Assembly: GCF_002999135.1 (NCBI RefSeq)
Contig: NZ_CP027229.1
Location: 1-64,000 of the forward strand
DNA: 64,000 nucleotides
Direction of reading: 5' to 3'
Source: Capnocytophaga sp. oral taxon 878
Lineage (GTDB): Bacteria; Bacteroidota; Bacteroidia; Flavobacteriales; Flavobacteriaceae
This document shows positions 3,034 to 57,767 of this stretch, in pieces (position 1 is the first letter of the stretch; each line of letters starts with the position of its first letter). The notes beneath the pieces were generated by a model. The model saw only the letters and a list, made by a program, of their open reading frames with translations, ran no database searches and had not been told where the DNA came from. Made by a program: the position numbers and the translations under genes.

Positions 3034-3270
3034 TTTTGTTACGAATTATGCAAAGGTAGTGGAGGAGGGTGAAAGGGCTGATAATCAGAGAAGTGATGCT
3101 TATAGTTCGTTTATAGTTCGTTATTCCTTCGTTTATCCTTCGTTCAAGGTTCGTTCATTCTTTAAGTTGGCTGGGGTAACCTTGGTAGTGAAAAGGGTTG
3201 ATTATCAGGGGAGAAGTGAGGTGAAAGAGGTTATAGAGAGAGGGAAAGGAAATTTTGCATTATTCGCAAT
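3034..3270 (-). repeat. Dispersed intergenic repeat, long form, copy 1
   Basis: A 237-bp element in the sodA-padR gap, read on the minus strand. The outer inverted motifs are ATTGCGAATAATGCAAAAT (3252-3270) and TTTGCATAATTCGTAACAAAA (3034-3053). The core at 3101-3155 has five tandem 11-bp units (AACGAA plus five variable bases), one more than other copies. TGATNATCA palindromes lie on both sides. A 97-codon open frame across this element is judged non-coding. The remaining gap (2700-2870 and 3270-3403) is AT- or G-rich with no gene. Confidence 0.85.
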
Positions 3271-3403
3271 TTGGGGAAGAGGGGTGGGTGGTAGGTTTTA
3301 GAGGGTAGGGGAGAGGTAAGAGAAATAGGGGCTTTGGAGTAGGAGAGGGGAAGTTGGTAATTGAGAAGAAATATCAAAAATAAAATAGTAAAATAATAGA
3401 AAA

Positions 3404-3736
3404 ATGGAAGAAATAAACACTGAAAAGATTAGAACCCAAATGCGTAAGGGTATTTTGGAGATGTGTATTCTTTCTGTAATAAATAAGACGAATGAAGCCT
3501 ACGTGTCGGATCTTATTGAGGCACTTAAAGATGCTGATATGATAGTGGTGGAAGGGACTTTGTACCCTTTGCTTACGCGGTTAAAGAACGCAGACCTTTT
3601 GGCTTATCAATGGAAAGAATCGACATCGGGTCCGCCACGTAAGTACTATGTGCTTACCGATGCTGGGAAGCGCTTTCTGGCAGAAACCGTGAAAGCATGG
3701 AAAGAGTTAGAACAAATGATAGATAAATTAATATAA
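3404..3736 (+). CDS. PadR family transcriptional regulator
   Basis: A 110-residue winged-helix repressor of the short PadR type. The sequence shows the family pattern: RKGILEMCILSVI, then EGTLYPLLTRLKNADLL (recognition helix and following segment), then SGPPRKYYVLTDAGKRFL (wing). It is followed after a single base by a PspC-domain membrane protein, a pairing common in Bacteroidetes, which suggests that it controls that partner and itself. The imperfect dyad at 2874-2902 is the obvious candidate operator. The effector is unknown. Confidence 0.92.
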   Translation: MEEINTEKIRTQMRKGILEMCILSVINKTNEAYVSDLIEALKDADMIVVEGTLYPLLTRLKNADLLAYQWKESTSGPPRKYYVLTDAGKRFLAETVKAWKELEQMIDKLI

Positions 3737-3737
3737 T

Positions 3738-5471
3738 ATGGATAAGATAAAAAACATTAGCCTTGGAGGTTTTTCATTTATGCTTGAAGAATCTGCCTAT
3801 ACTGCACTTAGTACTTACCTTGCTAAGGTGCGCCAATACTTAAGCCATAATGAGGATGTGAACGAAATTCTTTTTGATGTAGAACAACGTATGGCAGAGC
3901 TGCTTAAAGAACGCCTTATAGCACGTGAAGTAATAGTATCTCAAGATGTGCAGTACCTTATTGATGTATTAGGAAAACCTGAACAGTACACCAATGATGA
4001 AACAGCGGAAGAGCCCGCTGCTGCCAGCCGTAGTAATTTTTCTTTTTCGGAACAGAAAAGGAAAAAGCTATATAGAAATCCTGATGATAAGAAGATAGGT
4101 GGGGTGCTATCGGGGCTGGCGTATTATTTAGATATAGATGTAACGCTGCTGCGTATAGGACTTATATTGCCTCTGCTTATTATTGCTTTTGTATTGGTAA
4201 TAACTAAGAGTGATTGGCATTATTTATTCTTACCTTTTTTACCGGTGATATTGGTGTATCTTATTTTCTGGGCTATAGTGCCTGCTGCTTATACTACTGC
4301 TGAGAAGATAGAAATGAAGGGCGAAGCAGTAAACCTTGATACTATATCTAACTTTAAAAATAGTAACATTCCGCCACAATCTACCGATTGGGTACGTAGT
4401 TTTTCAGATAAAAGGTTGTTTGGAGTGATAGGAGGTTTTGCAGCACGTACCAAGCTTGATAGCACATGGCTGAGGATTCTTTACATTGTATTTACCCTTG
4501 TGTGGTTACCTTGGTATCTTGGAATAACGCTCTTCTTCGTGAGTGCTTACTTGCTGCTGGCGCTTATTTTAAAGAAAGAGGAGCCTTTTGAGAGTGCAGC
4601 TCCTTTTGCAGACCCCTTGATACCCCGTAAGAGGAATAATATATTCTTCTTCTTGCTGAAAGGAATCTTTATATTGTTGGGGGCACTGCTGTGTATATTG
4701 TTATTTGAAACCTTAGCAATAAGCTTATTTATGGGTAGCTTGGCAGGAGGATTTTCAATGTTTATGTTTTCCGAGTATCTACCTTATTTTTTAGATCATA
4801 CTTGGCAGCTTAATCTTTTTTACCTATCGGTAGCCTTGTTCTTGTTTTTGCCTATATCGCTGATAACACTGTTAAGTTTTAAACTCTTCAGAAAGCAATT
4901 TAATACCCCTCGTATATGGGTAGTGGCGAATGTGTTGTGCTTGATAATAGGTGTATTGGGACTGCTTATAACTGCGGGTAGCACTGCACGCAACTTCATT
5001 GCACACTATGAAGATGAGCAAAGAATACCAATTACTACCAATGCTGATACACTTTATGTTACAGTAAACTCCCAAAAGCGCTATACAAAACATTTAAATG
5101 TGGATAACAACCGCCTTGTAGTAACAGAATTTGGCCTTGTAGTAACAGAATTTGGCCTTGTATCAATAAAACCTACAACTGAAAAAGAGCCTTTTTTGGT
5201 GTTAAAACGCGAGAGCAAAGGAAGTACCATACAGAATGCTAAGCAACAAATGCAACAGGTAGAGTTCCCTCTTCAAATAAACAATAATCACATTACCATA
5301 CCCGATTATTATCAGATAAAGCAAGGAGGCCTTTTCCGTTCCCAGCGTATTTTTGTAAAGTTATATGTGCCTGAGAGTAAATACATATACAAAAAAAGTA
5401 ACAGTACTTACTCCCCTAAAGAAGAACTGTACAGAGTAACTAAGGAGTCCCTCCAACTTATTAGCAAATAA
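3738..5471 (+). CDS. PspC domain-containing membrane protein
   Basis: A 577-residue membrane protein. Residues 1-90 form a soluble N-terminal region rich in charged helices. They are followed by two PspC-like modules: KLYRNPDDKKIGGVLSGLAYY near residue 112, and DKRLFGVIGGFAARTKLDSTW near 225. Each leads into hydrophobic segments, and four or five further transmembrane helices lie between about 300 and 420. The C-terminal 150 residues are probably extracytoplasmic. PspC domains are associated with envelope stress sensing, but the role here is not known. It is translationally coupled to padR. A 21-bp in-frame duplication repeats VVTEFGL twice near residue 465. Confidence 0.88.
   Translation: MDKIKNISLGGFSFMLEESAYTALSTYLAKVRQYLSHNEDVNEILFDVEQRMAELLKERLIAREVIVSQDVQYLIDVLGKPEQYTNDETAEEPAAASRSNFSFSEQKRKKLYRNPDDKKIGGVLSGLAYYLDIDVTLLRIGLILPLLIIAFVLVITKSDWHYLFLPFLPVILVYLIFWAIVPAAYTTAEKIEMKGEAVNLDTISNFKNSNIPPQSTDWVRSFSDKRLFGVIGGFAARTKLDSTWLRILYIVFTLVWLPWYLGITLFFVSAYLLLALILKKEEPFESAAPFADPLIPRKRNNIFFFLLKGIFILLGALLCILLFETLAISLFMGSLAGGFSMFMFSEYLPYFLDHTWQLNLFYLSVALFLFLPISLITLLSFKLFRKQFNTPRIWVVANVLCLIIGVLGLLITAGSTARNFIAHYEDEQRIPITTNADTLYVTVNSQKRYTKHLNVDNNRLVVTEFGLVVTEFGLVSIKPTTEKEPFLVLKRESKGSTIQNAKQQMQQVEFPLQINNNHITIPDYYQIKQGGLFRSQRIFVKLYVPESKYIYKKSNSTYSPKEELYRVTKESLQLISK
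5113..5154 (+). repeat. In-frame 21-bp tandem duplication inside pspC-like gene
   Basis: The 21-bp unit GCCTTGTAGTAACAGAATTTG occurs twice with no base difference, followed by a partial third start. It adds seven residues (LVVTEFG) without shifting the frame, and complete identity of the copies suggests a recent event. Confidence 0.9.
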
Positions 5472-57374: not shown

Positions 57375-57401
57375 AATTTCTAAGTGTTCACAATTAGAGT
57401 G

Positions 57402-57431
57402 CAAAGGTACAAATATTTTTTTAAATGGCAA
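57402..57431 (-). promoter_or_regulatory. Promoter of gyrB
   Basis: On the minus strand TTGCCATTT (TTG at 57429-57431), a 19-nt spacer and TACCTTTG (57402-57409) followed by CAC. The ATG is 28 nt downstream. Confidence 0.8.
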
Positions 57432-57531
57432 AAAAAACTTTACACACCAATCCCTCATCCTCTCTCCACCCCAAGCCCCCACCTCTTACCCTCCTCACTT
57501 ATTTCATATTTTTCATCCAAATATCATTTTC

Positions 57532-57767
57532 ATTGCCAATCTTTCAACAATATCTCTCCCCTCCCTATTCCCTATCTCCTAACTCCTTTCCCTTAATAAT
57601 CACCCCATTACACCCCAACCCCCTTACCTCTTACCTCTTATCTATTACCTACTTTAAACGAACCTATAACGAAGGATAAACGAACTATAAACGAAGGATA
57701 AACGTTACTTCATTCATTCTCAGTCGCTTTATCTTCCTGCTCTCTTTTTGCATAATTCGCAACAAAA
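57532..57767 (+). repeat. Dispersed intergenic repeat, long form, copy 8
   Basis: A 236-bp element between gyrB and the gene at 58066. The left end is a degenerate ATTGCCAATCTTTCAACAAT and the right end TTGCATAATTCGCAACAAAA (57748-57767). The core at 57657-57700 has four 11-bp units. The downstream TGATNATCA motif has decayed. The rest of the 690-bp gap holds the gyrB promoter and the C-rich array; open frames there are not credible genes. Confidence 0.86.

Follow-up and report, generated by a model that had tools for sequence, protein, structure and literature searches.

The first 64,000 nucleotides of contig NZ_CP027229.1 of Capnocytophaga sp. oral taxon 878 (RefSeq assembly GCF_002999135.1), here called the window, contain eight copies of a dispersed intergenic element with a box of TTCG units, repeated head to tail every 11 bp, at its core. 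Five copies (c1 to c5) are composites, in which the box is flanked by a left and a right arm, and three consist of the box only (Table 1). A first-pass annotation had noted inverted motifs at the five composite places; the described sequence is present at all of them (spans of 237, 236, 236, 236 and 236 bp), in both orientations and between genes, with four copies separating divergent open reading frames (ORFs) and c2 lying in a ++ gap. The same annotation had taken a left motif and its inverse as the ends of an element of 236 bp. Inverted motifs do occur, but they are unequal, the TTGCGAATTATGCAAA-like motif belonging to the left arm and the other being mostly TTTGAAATATTGGCAA-like. The 236 bp are a real inner span of a composite of about 275 bp, and the motifs are not the ends of the composite because conservation extends about 27 bp outward from the left motif and, on the right, as far as about +175. 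Its best-conserved part is not the inverted ends but the central box of about 50 bp, which that annotation did not name; the aligned five composites share this central stretch, which is also found in the three shorter copies.

The window was scanned with arm profiles built without its own copies. The left-arm profile matched exactly the five composite places and no other, and the right-arm profile matched the same five places and gave one weak extra match inside c4 (E 0.0024). The box profile recovered eight boxes (nine rows, c1 being split into two), and in this unselected window a box is present with every arm pair. Three equally spaced TTCG occur 15 times at 11 bp, once at 22 bp and once at 7 bp. 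With its five units, c1 is the odd copy. The automatic gap list of the window omits c1 and c5, which are covered by chance ORFs, and their contexts were taken from ORF coordinates. Tandem repeats lie directly beside c4 and c5, at 45938-46159 (28-bp; CTCCCCGCAATCCCCTATCTCCTAACTT) and 57799-57914 (14/41-bp; CCCCCTAACTCCTC).

Table 1. Copies of the TTCG box element in the window (window positions)
Feature	Position	Strand	Anatomy	Context	Basis
Composite c1	3008..3272	+	Left arm 3008-3099, box about 3100-3158 (five TTCG units), right arm 3160-3272	Divergent gap	Arm and box profiles, units
Composite c2	5700..5975	-	Left arm 5975-5885, box 5882-5833, right arm 5828-5700	++ gap	Profiles
Composite c3	12564..12839	+	Left arm 12564-12655, box 12658-12707, right arm 12712-12839	Divergent gap	Profiles
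Composite c4	45628..45903	-	Left arm 45903-45813, box 45810-45760, right arm 45756-45628	Divergent gap	Profiles
Composite c5	57522..57793	-	Left arm 57793-57702, box 57700-57651, right arm 57646-57522	Divergent gap	Profiles
Box-only copy	16535..16585	+	One TTCG reads TTTG	++ gap before ftsK-type gene	Box profile
Box-only copy	21348..21397	-	Hairpin unit 21396-21424 adjoining	Convergent gap (sole window box in one)	Box profile
Box-only copy	35919..35968	-		-- gap upstream of outer membrane efflux protein gene	Box profile

The family is real and abundant in the genome of this strain (G000; 2.99 Mb in 2 contigs), where a 33-base core had 217 matches (91 + 126, a few of them overlapping) at up to three mismatches and the reversed control had 0. 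The earlier guess of one copy per 8 kb, short forms included, describes the window (8 in 64 kb), but over the whole genome the core matches come closer to one per 14 kb. A subset of the family, 184 distinct boxes, was read with its context. The typical box is TATCC TTCGTT TATAG TTCGTT TATCC TTCGTT ATAGG TTCGTT C, and the number of TTCG units is four in 170 boxes, five in 9, three in 4 and six in 1. Two classes were recognised, 89 composites with the outer left motif and 95 box-only copies, with characteristic third spacers (ATAGG in 59 of the 89 composites, ATTCG in 78 of the 95 box-only copies).

Fixed spacing despite diverged letters, first proposed from the five window copies, extends to the 89 composites read, in which the distances between marks hardly vary. 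The outer left motif is found at -69 to -71 from the first TTCG in 84 of 89 composites; of the 83 copies in which the right outer motif scored, 72 have it at 144-146, 9 at 133-135 and 2 at 155. Between them stand inner palindrome-like marks near CTGATNATCAG, exact on the left in 21/89 and on the right in 8/89. The outer-left mark is 40 bp from the inner-left mark in 80 of 88 scorable composites; the two inner marks are 119-120 bp apart in 75 of 83 (109-110 in 4, 130 in 3, 118 in 1), and the inner-right and outer-right marks 54-55 bp apart in 73 of 83 (53 in 6, 43-44 in 3, 65 in 1). The larger departures amount to about one 11-bp step and the remainder to 1 bp or single cases, which looks as if a unit had been added or removed without a change of helical phase. 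A discrete, abundant intergenic element is thus supported, with numerous further copies in the genome and lengths that are near-constant and not random.

Mean pairwise identity within the box is 0.89 in 77 composites of standard register and 0.92 in box-only copies, compared with 0.62 in the left arm, 0.53 in the right arm and about 0.3 in the flanks. This contrast is biased, because most boxes had been found via the core pattern, and it was therefore repeated from the arm side. A genome search with the left arm only gave about 93 first-look candidates; 40 of these were scored, and every one adjoins a box. The same search on the sequence retrieved gave 65 distinct arms; each of the best 40 of the 65 has a box (with four units in 35), and in these identity is 0.693 in the arm and 0.915 in the box. 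As to composition, class B arms on both sides of the box are purine-rich on the TTCG strand (0.64, 0.69) and the box is pyrimidine-rich (purine 0.32), with distant flanks at 0.54-0.55.

With ORFs called by a simple rule, none of the 184 boxes falls inside an ORF of 130 aa or more. The boxes occupy 88 divergent, 55 ++, 27 -- and 14 convergent gaps, so that 170 of 184 lie in a gap with at least one gene start; the 14 convergent cases come from a later rule applied to all 184 boxes, an earlier rule on 82 boxes having given 2. Among boxes in tandem gaps, the TTCG strand coincides with the sense strand of the gene downstream in 55 cases and with the opposite strand in 27 (p 0.0026). For composites, the median distance from the box start to the last TAnnTTTG before the gene is 288 bp on one side and 196 bp on the other; for box-only copies the corresponding medians are 180 and 114 bp.

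The geometry of the box is common to part of the genus, and its letters are species-specific. The pattern of four TTCG at 11 bp was matched 239 times in G000, 389 times in G010, 121 times in C. bilenii (G001), 66 times in C. leadbetteri (G009), 37 times in G008, 10 times in G011 and once each in G003 and G018 (counts include overlapping units); the other 12 of the 20 genus genomes had 0 matches, and reversed controls gave 0-7 per genome. A sample of 800 kb from four sister genomes contained three equally spaced TTCG 145 times at 11 bp (45+19+62+19), 63 times at 22 bp and 8 times at all other spacings of 5-30 bp; many of these stretches, unlike the window, were chosen around known 11-bp arrays, and array frequencies in them are not genome rates. 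The letters between units are TTCGCTTATCC and TTCGCTCAACC in C. bilenii, TTCGTTCATTC and TTCGTCTTTTG in G010 and TTCGAGATGTG in G008. Arrays have 3-5 units in the C. bilenii stretches and 3-14 in G010, so the strict four units of the window species are not general. In G010 (L287, L289, L290, L300), arrays of up to 14 units are interleaved with a GTGCGGCTCGCAC palindrome, the complement of which also occurs beside C. bilenii arrays. Arm profiles found no composite arms in the 800 kb. With a whole copy as query, Blastn matched 4 of 19 congeners, in 11 places of 28-43 bp, of which 9 fall within the box and 2 close to the left end.

The gaps that contain sister arrays are divergent in 17 cases, tandem in 15 and convergent in 1, the corresponding numbers for gaps without arrays being 51, 159 and 36; sister arrays thus favour divergent gaps (17/33 vs 51/246, p 0.0003). 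Orthologs of box-facing G000 genes are found at 12 of 32 sister array gaps and at 29 of 210 others (p 0.002), or, counting only gaps with an ortholog available, at 12 of 15 and 29 of 57 (p 0.039). The 11-bp geometry is conserved between species, and position only weakly.

Outside the genus, the four-unit pattern was found in 15 of 395 genomes of the class (including G000) and the reversed control in 5, so single matches there mean little. Among 20 stretches from nine pattern-bearing genomes of the class, a TTCG array followed by an inverted array was seen in G342, G270, G297, G040 and G313; most of these stretches lie between longer ORFs and some under short ORFs of doubtful reality. A partly specified pattern retrieved at least 120 stretches from named genomes, and 33 of the 80 examined were from Capnocytophaga. 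Other taxa among the 80 were Prevotella, Chitinophaga, Niastella, Paludibacteraceae, Anaerolineales and Opitutae, some with plain tandem repeats or matches within ORFs. We regard the arrays outside the genus as a lead and not as proof of one family. Dispersed inverted-array elements (TTCGCCTATTG...) occur in nine stretches of G342 (L167-L175), and Chitinophaga stretches L342, L397 and L401, from more than one species, have pairs of inverted phased TTCG arrays around a similar loop (ttaaacaccctcaaaccc).

Taken together, these data suggest a family of dispersed intergenic putative protein-binding repeats; they do not identify a transposon, speak against a REP/RAYT system and do not support a structured RNA. 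Of the three options named in the first-pass annotation (mobile element, structured RNA, protein-binding unit), the last fits best, and we infer it from the arrangement of the repeats. Specifically, the box would be a DNA site for an oligomerising protein, with about one protomer per helix turn, upstream of promoters, and we put the chances of this at about even. Direct repeats about one turn apart, their fixed number, the near-constant distances and the better conservation of the box than of its surroundings indicate a head-to-tail protein oligomer. Also in favour of a protein site are the location in gaps with a gene start, the orientation bias in tandem gaps, the preference of sister arrays for divergent gaps and the recurrence of the geometry with other letters in sister species. 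Four head-to-tail TTCG units 11 bp apart would offer four identical contacts on one face of the helix, on which about four protomers could assemble into a short filament. Roughly half of the boxes read belong to a larger assembly, flanked on either side by palindrome-like marks whose distances are near-constant. Because the boxes lie upstream of promoters of unrelated genes, the putative binder would be a global regulator, an insulator or a nucleoid-type protein rather than a switch for one pathway, and its role may be regulation, insulation or DNA shaping. Constraint, and not only recent copying, would keep the box, and binding may affect transcription or DNA shape.

Comparable arrangements are known. 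The plasmid centromere parC has 11-bp direct repeats for ParR that are in phase with the helix, as in the box, but parC is one plasmid locus, and the box occupies about two hundred chromosomal promoter gaps. BldC is described as binding direct repeats as a filament, head to tail and with one protomer each (PMC5859096, PMC11963761). Its sites resemble the box in being head-to-tail direct repeats found at the promoters of many genes, and at one promoter the BldC molecules are described as one DNA turn apart; they differ in that the whiI repeats are of 9 bp with AATT, whereas those described here are of 11 bp with TTCG and their binder is only putative.

Several observations weigh against a protein site. 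No candidate gene for a binder was found, and binding is predicted from sequence. The ten proteins encoded beside the window copies are functionally mixed (superoxide dismutase, PadR with PspC, hemerythrin-PAS, YoeB-like, MauE/DoxX, FtsK, outer membrane efflux protein, DUF1573 and gyrase B). The distance from the box to the nearest TAnnTTTG-like promoter varies, and its helical phase is unconvincing (Rayleigh p between 0.18 and 0.77; one of four groups reached p 0.03 by chi-square). The diagnostic third spacers suggest copying within subfamilies, which could alone explain part of the uniformity of the box. Finally, box position is conserved only weakly between species: stratified by orientation, the ortholog test gave an odds ratio of 2.6 (chi-square 4.56), with p 0.27 for divergent gaps alone and 0/5 in G008.

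Any explanation has to include a mobile or gene-conversion step, because the uniformity of the letters within a species requires that sites be copied from one another; the moving unit may be the box, the composite or both. The composite could itself be a miniature inverted-repeat transposon (MITE) that accumulates in promoter gaps in the manner of the Neisseria Correia elements, the box serving as a site for transposase or a host factor and the box-only copies being either remnants or another mobile unit of shorter length. Bacterial MITEs, Correia elements among them, are like the box family short, abundant and intergenic, with inverted motifs and an internal protein site (putative in the box family). 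The inverted motifs on both sides agree with such an origin, as do signs of recent spread within the species, namely the number of arm candidates, the lack of arms in the sister sample and the subfamily-specific spacers. Direct support for the non-autonomous mobile element of the first-pass annotation was not found, although the copies have plainly spread by copying. In 77 composites no clear peak of target duplication was seen at 2, 3, 5, 7 or 9 bp; the best of thousands of offset combinations gave 11 observed against 3.5 expected at 3 bp and 21 against 8.6 at 2 bp. Terminal inverted repeats were not found either, conservation continuing past the inverted motifs, and in contrast to MITEs the centre and not the ends is best conserved. 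None of the 40 arms scored among the 93 first-look candidates lacks a box, and therefore no candidate autonomous copy was seen among them. At one gene (window 44091-45473), the gaps of six congeners with 77-88% protein identity contain no G000-type element and are too diverged to show a junction. We consider a MITE possible but rather unlikely. The BOX-type mosaic repeats of pneumococcus are likewise modular intergenic repeats with a repeated middle module, a likeness of layout.

Functionless repeats that are merely tolerated, with units and arms spread by recombination or slippage, would persist in promoter gaps because those are long gaps. The mixed neighbour genes agree with this, as does the greater length of sister array gaps (mean 357 bp vs 256 bp for other gaps), and the range of unit numbers in G010 is what slippage would give. 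Against it stand the exact four units in nearly all boxes of the window species, composite distances that hardly vary while letters diverge, and a box that is more alike than its arms. We regard this explanation as improbable.

REP/BIME-type elements made by a RAYT transposase are very improbable. Such elements share with the present family more than 100 copies per genome, extragenic location, composite structure and hairpin units (here in sister species, which mix arrays with hairpin units showing paired changes at one position). They differ in their palindromic core, the core here being a box of phased direct repeats with hairpins adjoining some boxes only. Y1_Tnp was found in 2 of the 20 genus genomes (G016 and G017), both array-free, and not in the array-bearing G000, G001, G008, G009 and G010, which disfavours a RAYT system. 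The hairpin unit, of 29 bp (ACATACTCNGCTGCGCCAGCTCGCN'GACT), often precedes arrays, as at window 21396-21424 (-), in L273 and L282 and in other C. bilenii and C. leadbetteri stretches. Its N/N' position is G-C, A-T, C-G and once T-A across copies, with a few mismatches. At up to three mismatches it occurs 77 times in G001, 35 times in G009, 18 times in G000, where the stem is partly decayed, and 1-5 times in five others.

Least probable of all is a structured RNA element in leaders, which fixed length and palindrome-like marks might suggest: 20 composites folded singly gave a mean z of -0.20 on one strand and -0.76 on the other, close to shuffled sequence (below -2 in 2/20 and 4/20), RNAalifold found no structure in the composites (a weak test, the column-shuffled control also giving none), boxes occur in both orientations relative to genes, and the last promoter-like site before the gene is mostly beyond the element. 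Rfam had 0 matches in the window at gathering scores and none in L001 and L038 at E up to 1. In eight related loci, E up to 1 gave four matches to microRNA models, far below gathering scores, in three loci outside the genus with inverted-array arms; these were taken as chance.

Returning to a protein site as the preferred explanation, a broader version can be offered tentatively, as one that we think somewhat unlikely to hold in full. In a clade within Capnocytophaga, and perhaps in scattered other Bacteroidota, a global DNA-organising or regulatory protein would read TTCG once per helix turn at hundreds of promoter-gap sites, which would be rewritten in each species by copying, the letters of the sites and the protein changing in concert while the 11-bp geometry stays fixed. 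If a protein site is the right reading, a single undescribed site for a protein recurs in many promoter gaps of a bacterium from an oral genus, and its relatives, which keep the geometry but differ in the letters, offer a rare chance to see hundreds of sites turn over together. The box is also a ready bait for finding the putative protein, which makes the question open to direct test. A literature search of open-access PubMed Central papers found no description of this TTCG box family among the matches listed. Viral contigs searched with the G000 core piece and with a looser four-unit pattern gave 0 matches, and a search of genome contigs with the PspC-type protein found no relative.

Two further repeats in the window lie within coding sequence. 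Positions 24269-27843 hold three tandem copies of a related protein-coding sequence, 68-98% alike by segment, and 46832-47593 is an ORF with long internal repeats of the lysine/glutamate/alanine type.

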